DNA from: a virus
Length of the DNA: 51,760 nucleotides
Reading direction: 5' to 3' (one strand)
IMG/VR virus record: IMGVR_UViG_3300046777_001420
Span: 1 to 51,760 of that record
How positions within the stretch are numbered: position 1 is the stretch's first letter; every line of letters starts with the position of its first letter. Shown here piece by piece: positions 3,403-33,056 of this stretch. Both the position numbers and the translations under genes were made by a program. A model generated the notes under the pieces. That model was not told where the DNA came from. It did no database searches and saw only the letters and a program-made list of their open reading frames with translations.

Positions 3403-3516
3403 TCAAGAAAATTGATTGGTGAGTTTGTTTACCATGTAGGCCAGCAAAGCTCCGCATGCTGTCCAAAGAAGATCTTTGACAACAGGAAGAACAACACCAA
3501 GAATAACTTCGAACAT
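3403..3516 (-). CDS. Small single-pass membrane protein
   Basis: A 37-residue protein: 'MFEVILGVVLPVVKDLLWTA' continuing into 'CGALLAYMVNK', i.e. one or two short hydrophobic helices and a polar C-terminus. ATG at 3516 lies 25 bases downstream of a copy of the CGTC/GACG leader hairpin, which supports it as a real expressed gene. Similar tiny hydrophobic proteins recur elsewhere in this arm (5074, 8223, 17756, 17827). Function unknown. Confidence 0.6.
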   Translation of the reverse strand: MFEVILGVVLPVVKDLLWTACGALLAYMVNKLTNQFS

Positions 3517-3541
3517 AAGTAGTAATGAATTGGTTAACAAG

Positions 3542-3565
3542 CAGTTTAACGTCATGCTTAGGACG
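3542..3565 (-). promoter_or_regulatory. CGTC/GACG leader element, copy 1
   Basis: Minus-strand reading: CGTC, loop CTAAGCAT, GACG, then TTAAACTG. It lies 9 bases after the stop of the gene at 3575-3892 and 25 bases before the ATG at 3516. One of ten copies in the early arm. Confidence 0.75.
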
Positions 3566-5556: not shown

Positions 5557-6635
5557 TTCTCACCTGTATCAGGATCTTGTGCAGATGCCAAGAGTTTGAC
5601 ATCTACATCACCACCTCTGGATGCAGGAAGAATTTCTACACCTTCTTTAATTCCATAAGCACCACCTAGCTTTTCAGCGTCTTGTTTTGCATGCTGATTA
5701 ATATAGTCAGCAAACATGTCTTGATACTTCCAAGTGGATTCCCGATCTTCATCAGGAATTGACATTTGGTTCAGTGATTCGATTGCTGTTTCTTGGCTGC
5801 TGTAATCAGGGATACCAAAAGATTCAATTGCGCAGATCTCAACGTTGTTGGCACCACGCATCTCATTGGCAAGTACCGGAGCAAATACGGTAGTTGCATA
5901 AAACTTTTCATTGAATGCTAATGGGATCTCAGAGTCCAGTGCTTTGCTCAAGCACTTAGACATTTCTTTTTCATACAGTTTAATCTTGTCGGCAGCATCA
6001 GTGCCATTTAATCCTTTCAAGGTAAGGACCATTGGAATCTTGTGTGCACGCTTGTTATCTTTTGTCAGGATATAAACAAGGTACTTGGTGCGTACACCGT
6101 ACTTACGCTTGTACATCTCACCTTTGCTATTAGCAAGATCAGATGCAGTCTTATCAGCATCAAACAATTCTTTGACGGCTGGGTCATCAAAGGTTCCAAT
6201 CGTTTGCCTCATTCCCATAGTTTCCTCAACCATGAGGGGAGAACGTAAAAGGATTTGAATTCGAGGCTCAACAAAATTAAGTCCTTCTTCAATTGAAGTG
6301 TTGGGAGCCATACCAAAAGTCTGCTTGTAGTTCCAGATAACTGAACCCTTAACAAAGTCACTTTCAGTGGCACTCCATCCGCAAGTATCCAAGTCTGAGT
6401 TCCGCACGAACCAACCTCTTGTCTTTGACTTATTAAGAGGTTGGATGGTGACCAGGTTTTGGTATCCGGAGACAAACCTTTTGTCTTGAAAAAGTTTGAA
6501 CGAATCCAGTCCACGAGTAGCGAGAGCAGATGTTTTCTTAGTGGTCATGATCTTTACAGGAGTTTTGGTAGAGGTTTCAGAAGTTTGTTCAGTGTCAGGA
6601 TCAGGTTGTCTCAGAGCATTAAGAATGGAAGTCAT
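5544..6635 (-). CDS. DUF5895-like protein
   Basis: A 363-residue soluble protein. After a polar N-terminus come 'SKTRGWFVRNSDLDTCGW', 'VEPRIQILLRSPLM', 'YGVRTKYLVYILTKDNKRAH' and 'PMVLTLKGLNG', in the order I remember for DUF5895, a family found in cyanobacteria, their plasmids and phages. No catalytic motif is evident. It is preceded by leader element copy 2 (24-base gap) and lies near SSB and polymerase, so a role in replication or recombination is plausible but inferred. Confidence 0.6.
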   Translation of the reverse strand: MTSILNALRQPDPDTEQTSETSTKTPVKIMTTKKTSALATRGLDSFKLFQDKRFVSGYQNLVTIQPLNKSKTRGWFVRNSDLDTCGWSATESDFVKGSVIWNYKQTFGMAPNTSIEEGLNFVEPRIQILLRSPLMVEETMGMRQTIGTFDDPAVKELFDADKTASDLANSKGEMYKRKYGVRTKYLVYILTKDNKRAHKIPMVLTLKGLNGTDAADKIKLYEKEMSKCLSKALDSEIPLAFNEKFYATTVFAPVLANEMRGANNVEICAIESFGIPDYSSQETAIESLNQMSIPDEDRESTWKYQDMFADYINQHAKQDAEKLGGAYGIKEGVEILPASRGGDVDVKLLASAQDPDTGENYSF

Positions 6636-6659
6636 GGTTGTTTGTTGTTGAGTAACAGG

Positions 6660-6683
6660 CAGTTTAACGTCATGCGTAGGACG
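6660..6683 (-). promoter_or_regulatory. CGTC/GACG leader element, copy 2
   Basis: CGTC, loop CTACGCAT, GACG, TTAAACTG on the minus strand. It starts 5 bases after the stop of the gene at 6689-6922 and ends 24 bases before the ATG at 6635. Confidence 0.78.
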
Positions 6684-8169: not shown

Positions 8170-8193
8170 TGGATCAGAAGTCAGGTGGTAAGG

Positions 8194-8217
8194 CAGTTTA
8201 ACGTCATACCTAGGACG
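8194..8217 (-). promoter_or_regulatory. CGTC/GACG leader element, copy 3
   Basis: CGTC, loop CTAGGTAT, GACG, TTAAACTG. It lies between the stop of the small membrane gene (8223) and the SSB ATG (8169), with a 24-base spacer. Confidence 0.78.
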
Positions 8218-11747: not shown

Positions 11748-11801
11748 TTGAAGTAAGTTGAGTTAAGTACAGACACATTAGTTTTACTAATATGTTGCAG
11801 A

Positions 11802-11825
11802 CAGTTTAACGTCATATCTAGGACG
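11802..11825 (-). promoter_or_regulatory. CGTC/GACG leader element, copy 4
   Basis: CGTC, loop CTAGATAT, GACG, TTAAACTG. The gap to the Gp88-like ATG is 54 bases, the longest of the set. The other side faces two plus-strand genes starting at 11898, so this is a divergent junction. Confidence 0.72.
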
Positions 11826-13946: not shown

Positions 13947-14020
13947 TGCCCGAGGGCGGATTCGAACCGCCGACTGCTCGATTTTAAGTCGAGAACCTCA
14001 TTCCGCTGGGTCACTCGGGC
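13947..14020 (-). tRNA. tRNA-Leu(UAA) with a short variable loop
   Basis: A 74-base cloverleaf: acceptor GCCCGAG/CTCGGGC (7 bp), anticodon arm CTCGA-CTTAAAA-TCGAG giving anticodon UAA, five-base variable loop CAGTC, T arm GGCGG-TTCGAAT-CCGCC, discriminator A. CCA is not encoded. D arm ACC/GGT with a GG pair in the loop. Bacterial tRNA-Leu normally has a long variable arm, so the class I form is unusual. Its 5' end overlaps the stop of the gene at 14011-14226 by 10 bases. Confidence 0.9.
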
Positions 14021-14277: not shown

Positions 14278-15999
14278 CTAATGAGATACTAGCTCATTTT
14301 CACGTGCTTGCAAAGCTTGACTAAATGCTGTGGTGTACAGCTCTTGTTGTTCTGGGCTAAGCCTGGAGTTTGATAGCCCAACAATTTGTTTGACAAACAT
14401 TGAACCATTGTTGACTTCCAATTGGACAGTGAACTGTGGCTTGCCATCAATCAAGCACAACACAATGAAGTGTTGTTTCTTACGGACACCCTCTGCATAA
14501 CCAGATGCATTACCAACGCAATTGCGTACGGCTTGTCCCCACTCACCCAGTTGATGTGTATCAATAGGTTGAAAGAATGTCCATTTACTGGAACCAAGTT
14601 CAATCTTGACAGGAACAGGAAACAAATCTTGTGGCAAGCTTTGGTTTGGGTTCTTAATCTTCCAGTTTTCTGCTTGAACATAATCATGAAACTCTTCGAT
14701 GCGCCAACGCTTAGGTGGTGCAAACTCTAAGTCTGGTTTGTCTTCGAGAATCCTGGTAAGCATAGAAGTTGTGTCGTTCCATTCATAGAAACGATAAATG
14801 TGAATACCAAGTTCACCATTTATAGGATACGTTTTTTGCTCTGCTACTTCTTTGTCATAGTATTTAGAAATGATTTGGAAAAATGAAGCAACAGGCATGT
14901 GTTTGCGTAACCATTCCATTGTTACATCACGATGACCATAAGATGAAAAATCAACACTAAGCATTTGTTCAATGTGGTTTTGATAGTAATCAATAGGACA
15001 ATCAGGCCAAATACTATTGACGTAAAGAATACGATCAAATAATTTATTAATAGTTAACCATGGACGCCTAATGTAACTACGGTATTCATTTGCTTCATCT
15101 ACGTATGTTGCGTTAACTTTATTACATTGTTCTTGAATCCATTTCTTAAAGAATGGCTTAGAAATAATATGAAGAATCTTATTGTATCTTCTATAGTTAT
15201 GCCCATAACTACCACTGATGTGCGCATGATATGTAATCAGATTAAACAAAGATTCATAAGATGCTTGCCAAGTTGTTCTATCATCTGTCTCCCAATAAGT
15301 ATTATCTGCATCTGATGAACTAACAAATAAAATTGACGGTAGATTATGTTTGCTTGCAATACGTTCAAAGATATTACTACTGTCTTGCCATACTGAAATA
15401 GTAGTTACTAGTTGTTCTTCAAACTGTTTAATAACTTTATAAAGTTCTTTAGACTTTTGATAATATGAAGTTGCACATGGAATATTCCAATTGCGACTTG
15501 TCTGTCCATTTTGAATTGAATCGATAGTAACCAATTCTTGATGTTGGTACATTACTGAACGACCAGTAACTACTTGTTGATATGAATCAATAGAGTTAGT
15601 AATTACCCGAGGCACAATTTCATGTGCAGCTTTTGTATCTTTAAATGCAAAGGCATAGCCATACACATACTTGCCTTCTTGTCCTTTAGATGGTAGCCAT
15701 GCTGCGTACCAGCAGTGCTCGTAGTGATACAAGATGGCAGTAACAATTACCTCGCCATTAGCGATGCGTGTAAATTTATAGTAACGATCTGCTGCAGGAT
15801 TTGAGTTGATGTGTGTGATTGCATCATCAAGCAATGACTCACGCACCACATCAACAGGGATCAATCCCTTGGGATTACCAAGTGGATGGGTAGATTTTCT
15901 GGCTTTAGGTTTTGGATTGTTGCTGCGTGCCAACTTCTTGAGCACTGGGTCATACGCAAGCAGTTCAGTTTGCAGATTAGAAGGGAGACGAAATTGCAT
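14278..15999 (-). CDS. PcfJ-like protein
   Basis: A 573-residue protein. The C-terminal domain has 'LGEWGQAVRNCVGNASGYAE', then 'HFIVLCLIDGKPQFTVQLEV' and 'VKQIVGLSNSRLSPEQQELY', the core pattern of PcfJ-like proteins (an Asn-Cys-Val-Gly motif at about residue 493, then a 'Q--G--N' motif). The N-terminal two thirds are helical and aromatic-rich. PcfJ-like proteins occur on conjugative plasmids and phages; their activity is unknown. Start 15999 lies 31 bases after leader element copy 5. The longer frame begins inside that element and is not credible. Confidence 0.72.
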   Translation of the reverse strand: MQFRLPSNLQTELLAYDPVLKKLARSNNPKPKARKSTHPLGNPKGLIPVDVVRESLLDDAITHINSNPAADRYYKFTRIANGEVIVTAILYHYEHCWYAAWLPSKGQEGKYVYGYAFAFKDTKAAHEIVPRVITNSIDSYQQVVTGRSVMYQHQELVTIDSIQNGQTSRNWNIPCATSYYQKSKELYKVIKQFEEQLVTTISVWQDSSNIFERIASKHNLPSILFVSSSDADNTYWETDDRTTWQASYESLFNLITYHAHISGSYGHNYRRYNKILHIISKPFFKKWIQEQCNKVNATYVDEANEYRSYIRRPWLTINKLFDRILYVNSIWPDCPIDYYQNHIEQMLSVDFSSYGHRDVTMEWLRKHMPVASFFQIISKYYDKEVAEQKTYPINGELGIHIYRFYEWNDTTSMLTRILEDKPDLEFAPPKRWRIEEFHDYVQAENWKIKNPNQSLPQDLFPVPVKIELGSSKWTFFQPIDTHQLGEWGQAVRNCVGNASGYAEGVRKKQHFIVLCLIDGKPQFTVQLEVNNGSMFVKQIVGLSNSRLSPEQQELYTTAFSQALQARENELVSH

Positions 16000-16030
16000 G
16001 GTGTGTTCAGAGTAAGTTCGTAGTGTAGAG

Positions 16031-16054
16031 CAGTTTAACGTCATGCTCAGGACG
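16031..16054 (-). promoter_or_regulatory. CGTC/GACG leader element, copy 5
   Basis: CGTC, loop CTGAGCAT, GACG, TTAAACTG. Five bases after the stop at 16060 and 31 bases before the PcfJ-like ATG (15999). The ATG inside the loop opens a spurious in-frame extension. Confidence 0.78.
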
Positions 16055-16520: not shown

Positions 16521-16718
16521 TTAAACCTCCATTAGTGCTTTGGATTTCATGAACTGAGATGTTGGGCCATACTTAGCTACAAGATCAGGAAATACGTCAA
16601 GAATCTTTTGACGATTTACAGGATCTGCGTAGCGTAATGCTGTAGCTAGATGGGATACAAATGTACCACCATAGGTTTGCATGCATTCAGTCATTGCATG
16701 GAACTGAGCTGAGTTCAT
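16521..16718 (-). CDS. Hypothetical protein
   Basis: A 65-residue protein from the ATG at 16718 ('MNSAQFHAMTECMQTYGGTF'), with 'VSHLATALRYADPVNRQKIL' and 'FPDLVAKYGPTSQFM'. The pattern resembles small phage proteins with an 'F...L..A...AD..NR..L...FP....KY' arrangement that I have seen near replication genes; function unknown. Start fits 25 bases after leader copy 6. Confidence 0.68.
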   Translation of the reverse strand: MNSAQFHAMTECMQTYGGTFVSHLATALRYADPVNRQKILDVFPDLVAKYGPTSQFMKSKALMEV

Positions 16719-16743
16719 AGGTTGAGTTGAGATAGGACATGGA

Positions 16744-16767
16744 CAGTTTAACGTCATGTCCAGGACG
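16744..16767 (-). promoter_or_regulatory. CGTC/GACG leader element, copy 6
   Basis: CGTC, loop CTGGACAT, GACG, TTAAACTG; 25 bases before the ATG at 16718. The nearest gene upstream is 114 bases away, so here the element starts a free-standing unit. Confidence 0.78.
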
Positions 16768-18662: not shown

Positions 18663-18989
18663 TTACCGATGTGCTTCTTGATGTTCTTTCCATGCAGCAC
18701 TGTGCATCTCAGCCATGGTAATAGGTGGTTCACCATATGAGTCTTCAATTTCATAAGGCCATTCAATTGCTTTCTCAAGTAAATCGATGGCCTCTAGTAG
18801 TAATTCTTCTGAACTGTAAGGAAGATCATTATGTCCCAATGGACGTTCGTCTTCTCGTTTAACGATTGCCTTAAGTTCTTTGATCATGAGTTCAATGCGT
18901 TTGTCGTCATGCATAGGAATGACGCGAGCTATCTCTCCGTTAGGAGACTGCCAAACGCTTGGTTCAAAGTGAAGTTCAGTTTGTTTCAT
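18663..18989 (-). CDS. Hypothetical protein
   Basis: A 108-residue acidic protein: 'MKQTELHFEPSVWQSPNGEI', a helix 'KRIELMIKELKAIVKREDE', 'SSEELLLEAIDLLEKAI' and 'MAEMHSAAWKEHQEAHR'. No domain recognised. It lies 26 bases after leader element copy 7, the copy with a changed stem. Confidence 0.65.
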   Translation of the reverse strand: MKQTELHFEPSVWQSPNGEIARVIPMHDDKRIELMIKELKAIVKREDERPLGHNDLPYSSEELLLEAIDLLEKAIEWPYEIEDSYGEPPITMAEMHSAAWKEHQEAHR

Positions 18990-19015
18990 GATGGATGCAA
19001 AGTTAGTTTGTTAAG

Positions 19016-19039
19016 CAGTTTAAAGACATGCTCAGGTCT
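19016..19039 (-). promoter_or_regulatory. Leader element, copy 7 (AGAC/GTCT stem)
   Basis: AGAC, loop CTGAGCAT, GTCT, TTAAACTG. The loop and tail equal those of copy 5 but both stem arms differ (CGTC/GACG elsewhere) and still pair. 26 bases before the ATG at 18989 and 8 bases after the stop at 19048. Confidence 0.75.
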
Positions 19040-19824: not shown

Positions 19825-19983
19825 TTAGAAGTGAACATTGGGTAGTGTGTGAGTTGATTTGTCAACACCAAGCCATTCCTCTGGAACAGACTCGCGCATG
19901 GCTTGCTCCTGTTCATAGGCTTGGTCCGCCATAGCATCAAGTGCATCAGACGGAATGTCATTTTCAAATTCGTTTGAATGCAT
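19825..19983 (-). CDS. Hypothetical small acidic protein
   Basis: A 52-residue protein from the ATG at 19983 ('MHSNEFENDIPSDALDAMAD'), 34 bases after leader copy 8. Acidic helix then 'VPEEWLGVDKSTHTLPNVHF'. No family recognised. The upstream frame extension begins in the leader and is not used. Confidence 0.62.
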   Translation of the reverse strand: MHSNEFENDIPSDALDAMADQAYEQEQAMRESVPEEWLGVDKSTHTLPNVHF

Positions 19984-20017
19984 GATTTGTCGGAAGTTGA
20001 CTGCAGTGTTTGTAGAG

Positions 20018-20041
20018 CAGTTTAACGTCATACTCAGGACG
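20018..20041 (-). promoter_or_regulatory. CGTC/GACG leader element, copy 8
   Basis: CGTC, loop CTGAGTAT, GACG, TTAAACTG; 11 bases after the stop at 20053 and 34 bases before the ATG at 19983. Confidence 0.78.
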
Positions 20042-22102: not shown

Positions 22103-22130
22103 GTTGTGACCAACCGTTGAGTTGTCTGCT

Positions 22131-22152
22131 GCGTTTAACGTCCAGCTTGACG
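22131..22152 (-). promoter_or_regulatory. CGTC/GACG leader element, copy 9 (short loop)
   Basis: CGTC, six-base loop AAGCTG, GACG, TTAAACGC; 28 bases before the ATG at 22102. Same stem as most copies but a different, shorter loop shared with copy 10. Confidence 0.72.
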
Positions 22153-22178: not shown

Positions 22179-22358
22179 TCAGAACGGAAACACTTCTATC
22201 ACAAGCAGATCTTGCTCCCAATCTTCAAAAGATTGGAAATATTGAACCGCCTGTTCCTCTGTGTCGAAGCTGCGTTCACTTCCTTGAAAGTACGCATCAA
22301 TAGATGTGTAATCCGCATAATCTGAGTAATCTCTTTTGACCTGAACTGAATAAACCAT
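22179..22358 (-). CDS. Hypothetical acidic protein
   Basis: A 59-residue protein from the ATG at 22358: 'MVYSVQVKRDYSDYADYTSI', 'GSERSFDTEEQAVQYFQSF', 'EQDLLVIEVFPF'. Beta-helix-beta with many Tyr and Asp. Start is 25 bases after leader copy 10; the long upstream frame crosses the origin-like region and is not real. Unknown function. Confidence 0.65.
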   Translation of the reverse strand: MVYSVQVKRDYSDYADYTSIDAYFQGSERSFDTEEQAVQYFQSFEDWEQDLLVIEVFPF

Positions 22359-22383
22359 TGTGTTAAGTTGAATAGGACATGCT

Positions 22384-22405
22384 ACGTTTAACGTCCAGCT
22401 TGACG
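22384..22405 (-). promoter_or_regulatory. CGTC/GACG leader element, copy 10 (short loop)
   Basis: CGTC, loop AAGCTG, GACG, TTAAACGT; 25 bases before the ATG at 22358. It lies between that gene and the DnaA-box cluster. Confidence 0.72.
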
Positions 22406-32523: not shown

Positions 32524-32545
32524 TTGTTTAGCGAATCTTTTTATA

Positions 32546-32716
32546 ATGACTGCTTCTTCTGGAACTGATTACGCAACTGATTTTGACCTAAATCGTTTTC
32601 AGGAACTGTTAAATCGCCTGGAAGCTTCCAAAGGTCGTCAGCAACGCCAGAAATCTGTTGAAGGTCGCCGCGATATCTTCTCGCAAGGCCTCGCTAGTAT
32701 GATGTCTAATTTCTAA
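32546..32716 (+). CDS. Small tandem paralogue 1 (56 aa)
   Basis: A 56-residue protein 'MTASSGTDYATDFDLNRFQE...' with a 'LLNRLEASKGRQQRQK' helix and 'GRRDIFSQGLASMMSNF' end. 54 of 56 residues equal those of the next gene while the DNA differs at many third codon positions, showing selection on the protein. No known family; likely a small virion or DNA-packaging protein. Confidence 0.75.
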   Translation: MTASSGTDYATDFDLNRFQELLNRLEASKGRQQRQKSVEGRRDIFSQGLASMMSNF

Positions 32717-32739
32717 TTGTTTAGTAAAATTTTCCTACA

Positions 32740-32910
32740 ATGACTGCTTCTTCCGGTACCGATACCGCAACTGATTTTGATCTGAATCGTTTTCAGGAAT
32801 TGCTAGATCGTTTGGAAGCTTCCAAAGGTCGTCAGCAGCGTCAAAAATCCGTCGAGGGTCGTCGCGATATTTTCTCGCAGGGCCTTGCTAGTATGATGTC
32901 TAACTTCTGA
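32740..32910 (+). CDS. Small tandem paralogue 2 (56 aa)
   Basis: Differs from the preceding protein only at residue 9 (Tyr to Thr) and 23 (Asn to Asp). Synonymous differences are frequent, so the duplication is not very recent or the copies evolve under strong constraint. ATG at 32740, TAAAAT 9 bases upstream. Confidence 0.75.
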   Translation: MTASSGTDTATDFDLNRFQELLDRLEASKGRQQRQKSVEGRRDIFSQGLASMMSNF

Positions 32911-32915
32911 TCGAT

Positions 32916-33056
32916 ATGCAAAATTCAGGCCAAAACCAACCTTTAGGTCCGGAATTTGACCTGGATAAATATCGCAATCTTTTGGAGCGGCTTCAACAAT
33001 CTAAACGAGATAAAGAGCGTTTAGACAAAAAACTTCCTTTACCAAAGTCGGCATAA
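32916..33056 (+). CDS. Small tandem paralogue 3, diverged (46 aa)
   Basis: 'MQNSGQNQPLGPEFDLDKYR' followed by 'NLLERLQQSKRDKERLDKKL'. The 'FDL--(F/Y)--LL-RL--SK' core aligns with the two preceding 56-residue proteins, so it is a diverged copy without the C-terminal GRRD segment. ATG lies 5 bases after the previous stop. Confidence 0.65.
   Translation: MQNSGQNQPLGPEFDLDKYRNLLERLQQSKRDKERLDKKLPLPKSA

Follow-up and report, generated by a model that had tools for sequence, protein, structure and literature searches.

The motif that recurs in the window is an H-type RNA pseudoknot of 27–28 nt, an assignment about which we have very little doubt. By the window we mean the whole stretch of DNA that was analysed, the 51.8-kb virus record IMGVR_UViG_3300046777_001420 (positions 1 to 51,760). 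The motif is a widespread cis-acting phage RNA at cistron boundaries and is present in phages of many bacterial phyla. Its fold (by covariation), its distribution and its placement were observed directly.

The strand order is S1 (4 bp), L1 (C), S2 (5–6 bp), L2 (1 nt), S1′, L3 (UUAAAC) and S2′, which is ordinary H-type geometry. Across relatives the general form has an S2 that ends in YA/UR and an L3 of NNAAAC. All standard copies have an 8-nt loop whose central bases can pair with those that follow TTAAAC (GAGCA/UGCUY, GGACA/UGUCC, AGAUA/UGUCU, etc.). With loop and tail complementary, the element is a pseudoknot rather than a hairpin.

A preliminary description of the window had proposed an RNA hairpin, based on one copy in which the stem reads AGAC/GTCT where the others have CGTC/GACG. 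On the minus strand, from 19039 down, this copy reads AGAC-CTGAGCAT-GTCT-TTAAAC-TGCTTA. The bases are as described: both arms are changed and pairing is kept. Relative to the other copies, two S1 pairs out of four are replaced (the outer C–G becomes A–U and the third U–A becomes A–U). The loop CTGAGCAT is indeed the same as that of the copy that begins at 16054, and the tail TTAAACTG, said to be shared with that copy, is common to all eight standard copies. The proposed RNA stem thus stands, but the hairpin gives way to a pseudoknot, since the loop pairs with the tail. The description had missed this loop–tail complementarity as well as two divergent copies, in which the loop is 6 nt long.

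The nearest named relative of the window is the freshwater cyanophage S-EIV1, with 82.5% identity in a 784-aa structural protein and 74% in the family-A DNA polymerase. Replication genes and small genes occupy the minus strand of the left half, and structural genes the plus strand from 23539. The motif copies are confined to the minus strand and to the module that holds the replication genes. A tRNA-Leu (TAA) gene at 13947–14020 is also on the minus strand and is transcribed in the same direction as the motif copies. Between the structural genes, the plus strand carries a tandem 194-nt direct repeat (32534–32921, 83% identical).

A relaxed descriptor of the fold gives 8 matches in the window. 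The variant copy (19012–19039; S1 AGAC/GUCU, S2 GAGCA/UGCUU) has an upstream ORF whose stop codon starts 11 nt before S1, and an ATG at 18989. CGTC/GACG forms S1 in the seven other standard copies, whose first S1 bases are 20041, 16767, 16054, 11825, 8217, 6683 and 3565. At 20014–20041 (S1 CGUC/GACG), S2 is GAGUA/UGCUC and the likely start is the ATG at 19983. The copy at 16740–16767 has a 6-bp S2 (UGGACA/UGUCCA) and an ATG at 16718. At 16027–16054, S2 is GAGCA/UGCUC, the upstream stop codon is at −8 relative to S1, and the ATG at 15999 opens a protein that matches phrog_16315. S2 is AGAUA/UGUCU at 11798–11825 (ATG 11747) and AGGUA/UGCCU at 8190–8217. The latter has a stop codon at −8 and lies 21 nt ahead of the ATG (8169) of a single-strand DNA-binding protein (SSB) gene (phrog_44); S-EIV1 also has a motif copy ahead of its SSB gene. 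The copy at 6656–6683 has one mismatch in S2 (ACGCA/UGCCU), again a stop codon at −8, and an ATG 21 nt downstream at 6635. The copy at 3538–3565 (S2 AAGCA/UGCUU) precedes the ATG of a 37-aa ORF at 3516.

The two divergent copies, which begin at 22405 and 22152, read CGTC-AAGCTG-GACG-TTAAAC-G-YAGC on the minus strand. Both have the 6-nt loop AAGCUG. The one at 22380–22405 has a possible S2 of GCUG/UAGC and an ATG at 22358; the one at 22127–22152 has a possible S2 of GCUG/CAGC and no clear gene start adjoining. They are part of two minus-strand 48-nt repeats that are 83% identical.

The pairing was examined far beyond the window. Among 2.9 million viral contigs, a scan with S1 and the loops fixed and most of S2 left free returned at least 117 stretches, and S2 pairs at 5/5 positions in most of these, among the matches listed. 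A second scan of viral contigs left S1 free, save that its first base was not C. Of 106 distinct matches among those listed, S1 is fully paired in 87, at least three of four pairs form in 104, and none has fewer than two. AGAC/GTCT, the variant of the 19012–19039 copy, is among the commonest alternative stems. The preliminary description had named what would refute it: stem changes in related phages that break pairing as often as they keep it. Changes in S1 keep pairing far more than they break it, and the RNA-level reading therefore survives. The variant copy had also been called the best single argument for action as RNA. It points in the right direction, but alone it is only modest evidence.

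Both stems hold up against controls. In 76 distinct sequences, S1 positions 2, 3 and 4 each pair in 75/76, two-sided changes occur at all four pairs, and 93.6% of cells are paired, compared with 23–43% when the partner strand is slid; no shuffle reached the covariation score. With S2 left free (59 sequences), 93.4% are paired versus 14–52% in slid controls. S1 varies widely, with at least 40 pair combinations; CGUC/GACG is the commonest, and UUAAACU is the commonest strand after S1′. The descriptor imposes the C, A and AAAC of the loops, so their constancy can be read only from a scan with the stems fixed and the loops free (n=104 among the matches listed). There, L1 is CT or CC in 95/104, L3 ends in AAAC in 89/104, and L2 can be any base.

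No Rfam 15 family matches at or above its gathering score, and none does up to E=10 with the copy itself as query. Neither did we find pseudoknot, xrRNA or coremin elements reported in phages in the open-access literature; most subscription papers and bioRxiv were outside the scope of this search. As an RNA class, the pseudoknot is supported by covariation and lacks an Rfam 15 entry; the phage contigs that carry it number at least several hundred.

The recurrence of the motif is far above chance expectation. The relaxed descriptor matches 489 times over 3.5 Mb of fetched loci, and shuffling this DNA with a first-order Markov model leaves no match. These loci were chosen for holding the motif, and the abundance figures from the contig scans are lower bounds. 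In 84,980 prokaryote genomes the strict form has 4 matches, at least one of them in an apparent phage contig, and a plasmid collection yielded one weak match only. The pseudoknot occurs far outside the phage lineage of the window. The fold was checked in sequence in phages of Synechococcus, Nostoc, Microcystis, Mycobacterium, Arthrobacter (with a longer L3), Lactobacillus, Streptococcus, Moorella, Christensenellales and Lentibacter, in Roseobacter SIO1 and thermophilic phage D6E, and, with S1 paired at 3/4, in Paracoccus phage. It was likewise checked in one Vibrio phage group, in one E. coli group (Chaseviridae, S1 3/4) and in one crAss-like phage from the human gut (S1 3/4); a second crAss-like phage is equal by BLAST. 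Conclusions on gammaproteobacterial and Bacteroidota hosts rest on few phage groups; gammaproteobacterial carriers amount to two groups, in a collection to which such phages contribute a large share. BLAST matches in Aeromonas 1233, Rhizobium N28_1 and S-WAM1 were dropped as chance matches without the fold, and 85 Staphylococcus matches were left out of the list of named carrier phages.

The motif sits between genes in a defined way. Genes in the contigs were called as simple ORFs. Among 376 resolved matches, the downstream gene is on the same strand in 351, the upstream gene in 333, and both in 314; where only one neighbor is on the same strand, it is the downstream one in 37 and the upstream one in 19. 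In 113/413 matches the stop codon of the upstream ORF begins at −8, leaving a 5-nt gap to S1; in only 5 is it closer. It falls within −12 to −6 in 202/413 matches but at only 7/482 random positions. The edge persists over 185 upstream-protein clusters, with 38 at −8, then 17, 11 and 15 further out, 4 at −7 and 1 at −6. On the other side, ATGs cluster 20–23 nt past S2, and start codons are mostly at least 20 nt past S2. Intercistronic regions that bear the knot are hardly ever shorter than 52 nt (5+27+20). In 13/417 matches a tRNA 5′ end lies 3–12 nt past S2, compared with 0/1251 controls within 20 nt. The copies had been described as leaders. They do precede protein genes, but since they also adjoin tRNAs, they are not leaders of protein genes alone.

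When the stop codon occupies the A site, the ribosome opens the mRNA up to roughly the start of S1; at initiation, its footprint reaches about 20 nt upstream of the start codon. From these footprints and the observed spacing, we infer that the knot fits as tightly as possible between terminating and initiating ribosomes without being melted. The downstream genes have no shared theme: 80 proteins, one per cluster, include SSB, PhoH, ThyX, scaffold, integrase and methyltransferase. In phages of several Firmicutes and in D6E (L342, L350, L390 and L393), a capsid scaffold gene follows the knot by about 30–65 nt, and the knot heads the scaffold–capsid gene pair.

A second structured RNA, (CU)GGGCAUCC-hairpin-GGUGUAAGUCCC(AG), was seen in the same niche, at L019:2810-4401, L310:5082, L323:3862 and L035:5555, and in at least about 120 viral contigs. 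Its free outer stem pairs match in 90/102 among the matches listed. Upstream stop codons peak 8–10 nt ahead of the GGG, and start codons mostly lie 23–34 nt downstream. In the leaders of orthologues of the gene behind the 19012–19039 copy, this second RNA takes the place of the pseudoknot. A stretch holding four copies of it had no credible Rfam match.

The known RNA that most bears on function is coremin (GUCCGAAGACGUUAAACUAC); this plant-virus element halts Xrn1 in vitro and also blocks scanning ribosomes, in eukaryotic lysate (PMC10520033). That 2023 paper does not mention phages or bacteria (PMC10520033). Coremin (xrRNA-C of beny-, cucumo- and other RNA viruses) and the phage knot both have a 4-bp first hairpin (hp1), commonly CGUC/GACG. 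In coremin and the 8-nt form of the knot, the first loop base is C, the penultimate loop base is A, and a UUAAACU strand follows. Both are in sense orientation, coremin in untranslated regions and the knot between cistrons. The phage knot thus meets the coremin test of a 4-bp hp1 followed by a UUAAACU spacer, and the features in common are the most constant parts of the knot. The published loop consensus (YGAD or YGNNAD) is not met: loops in the window are 8-nt CUNNNYAU or 6-nt AAGCUG, and where coremin has G at loop position 2, the 8-nt loops of relatives nearly always have U or C. A second hairpin (hp2) directly past the spacer is not found either, as the phage tail pairs back into the loop. 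Coremin belongs to RNA viruses, whereas the knot lies between cistrons of dsDNA phages, has S2 in place of the second hairpin, and has only an inferred nuclease resistance. Because the loop consensus and the second hairpin are unmet, we do not file the phage element as coremin. Hexaloop coremin forms (YGNNAD; CGAAAU, CGCAAU) also occur in phage contigs; UA follows in about 20, some of them before tRNAs. In one contig (L049:1535 and 2603, minus strand), an octaloop pseudoknot and, no more than about 10 nt behind it, a coremin-type hexaloop hairpin (CGTCCGAAATGACGTTAAACTA) occur in tandem twice.

Since its core matches that of coremin, which stops Xrn1 in vitro, we tentatively propose that the knot serves as a roadblock in the RNA at cistron boundaries, by which neighboring segments are made to decay separately. 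We would put this at somewhat short of an even chance. The knot would stay folded while the genes on both sides are translated and would halt enzymes moving along the transcript during decay. Neighboring polycistronic segments, or an mRNA and a tRNA, could then be processed and degraded independently. That decay is stopped, and from which side, is inferred. Against the proposal, there are no transcript, half-life or nuclease data for any carrier phage, and the analogy to coremin suffers from the unmet loop consensus and the missing second hairpin. A structured xrRNA of another class (flavivirus) stops bacterial RNase J1 in vitro (PMC5760640). Flavivirus xrRNAs are likewise proteinless exonuclease-stopping folds, but they are larger and ring-like and have no sequence relation to the phage knot. 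Resistance to RNase J as the sole function was rejected: none of 61 Bacteroidota genomes exceeds the RNase J family cut-off, yet two crAss-like phages have the motif, and its presence in Vibrio and E. coli phage groups also counts against RNase J as the only target. The target must therefore be broader, such as the linear 5′-end scanning of RNase E, 3′-to-5′ exonucleases acting on the upstream mRNA, or ribosomes.

That last target leads to a different role, in which the knot would bar ribosomes, whether terminated or scanning, from moving on beyond the stop codon, and so insulate downstream initiation or a tRNA from upstream translation. The 5-nt gap after the stop codon suits contact with a terminating ribosome, scanning ribosomes are stalled by coremin in eukaryotic lysate (PMC10520033), and such a role would be compatible with all host phyla. 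The pile-up of stop codons, however, could equally mark how near a terminating ribosome can come without melting S1. Moreover, in Lactobacillus and Streptococcus phages the scaffold leaders lie 125–172 nt past the previous annotated gene, without a nearby terminating ribosome. We consider this role unlikely, though still possible.

It is improbable that the knot is a translational operator bound by a phage protein, perhaps SSB, which would control an early-gene regulon in the manner of T4 gp32. The precedent is the T4 gene 32 operator, a pseudoknot of ~28 nt followed by unstructured, A/U-rich leader RNA with UUAAA repeats (PMC535899). The phage knot is also a pseudoknot of about 28 nt upstream of a weakly structured leader, and an SSB gene lies downstream of one copy in the window. 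About ten copies occur in the window, only in the minus-strand replication-gene module. But the T4 operator is a single, gene-specific site for gp32, whereas the same phage core is found with unrelated proteins and hosts across many bacterial phyla, and before tRNAs and capsid scaffold genes, so that a common protein partner is hard to see. The linkage to SSB expected of a gp32-type operator is not met: the SSB leader is 1 of about ten in the window, and elsewhere SSB accounts for 2/80 downstream proteins (one per cluster). In most cases the knot also lies too far upstream of the start codon (at least 20 nt) to overlap the expected ribosome binding site.

The knot could instead serve only the upstream mRNA, as a stabilizer of its 3′ end: RNase P (at tRNAs) or another endonuclease would cut immediately past the knot, which would block 3′-to-5′ exonucleases. 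The tightest spacing is indeed to the upstream stop codon, and tRNA 5′ ends lie 3–12 nt past the knot. Next to a tRNA, where a 5′-to-3′ block would shield little on its downstream side, the knot might equally well protect the upstream 3′ end. As the only role it is quite improbable, as the scaffold leaders and the crAss primase leader have their nearest upstream gene 125–500 nt off and the downstream gene close, and single same-strand neighbors are more often downstream than upstream (37 versus 19).

Known frameshift and readthrough pseudoknots have the 5-nt-type spacing seen here between the stop codon and the knot, as would be expected if the knot stimulated recoding. Plant-virus frameshift pseudoknots and preQ1-I riboswitches also share its H-type topology, short L1 and A-rich L3 along S1. 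We nevertheless regard a recoding signal as highly improbable: a slippery site is present in 1/43 independent cases, stop codons and their contexts are mixed, and the median frame-0 extension is 18 codons with no conserved long one. Unlike preQ1-I riboswitches, the knot has no metabolic theme downstream and no Rfam riboswitch match. A metabolite riboswitch was rejected for want of a theme among the 80 downstream proteins; with tRNAs included among these themeless genes, neither such a riboswitch nor a pure translation switch is likely to be the general role. Least tenable, with next to no chance, is a DNA-level palindrome such as a repressor or phage promoter site: in one genome the S1 inverted repeat and the conserved TTAAAC could pass for a binding site, but the many S1 pairings, the covarying crossing helix S2, the sense-strand bias and the fixed stop/start spacing exclude a DNA-binding dimer as the main reading, and there is no promoter-like consensus upstream of the motif. 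The preference of the preliminary description for action as RNA over a dimeric DNA-binding protein is thereby borne out.

More broadly, and with less assurance than for the decay roadblock itself, we suggest an undescribed class of cistron-boundary RNA that may be common in dsDNA phages of most major bacterial phyla. It would comprise the minimal pseudoknot and the second, unrelated fold in the same niche, remain folded between translating ribosomes, and set the fate of transcript segments through the Xrn1-stopping core of plant viruses. Even without a function, there remains an RNA class that covariation supports, that Rfam 15 lacks and that several hundred phage contigs or more contain. If the roadblock reading is true, phages of many bacterial groups split their operons into independently decaying parts with a 28-nt RNA, and a very small RNA-stability part would be gained. 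There would be a testable account of differential expression in phage operons without internal promoters or terminators, and plant RNA viruses and bacterial DNA phages would be using the same small fold against RNA decay.
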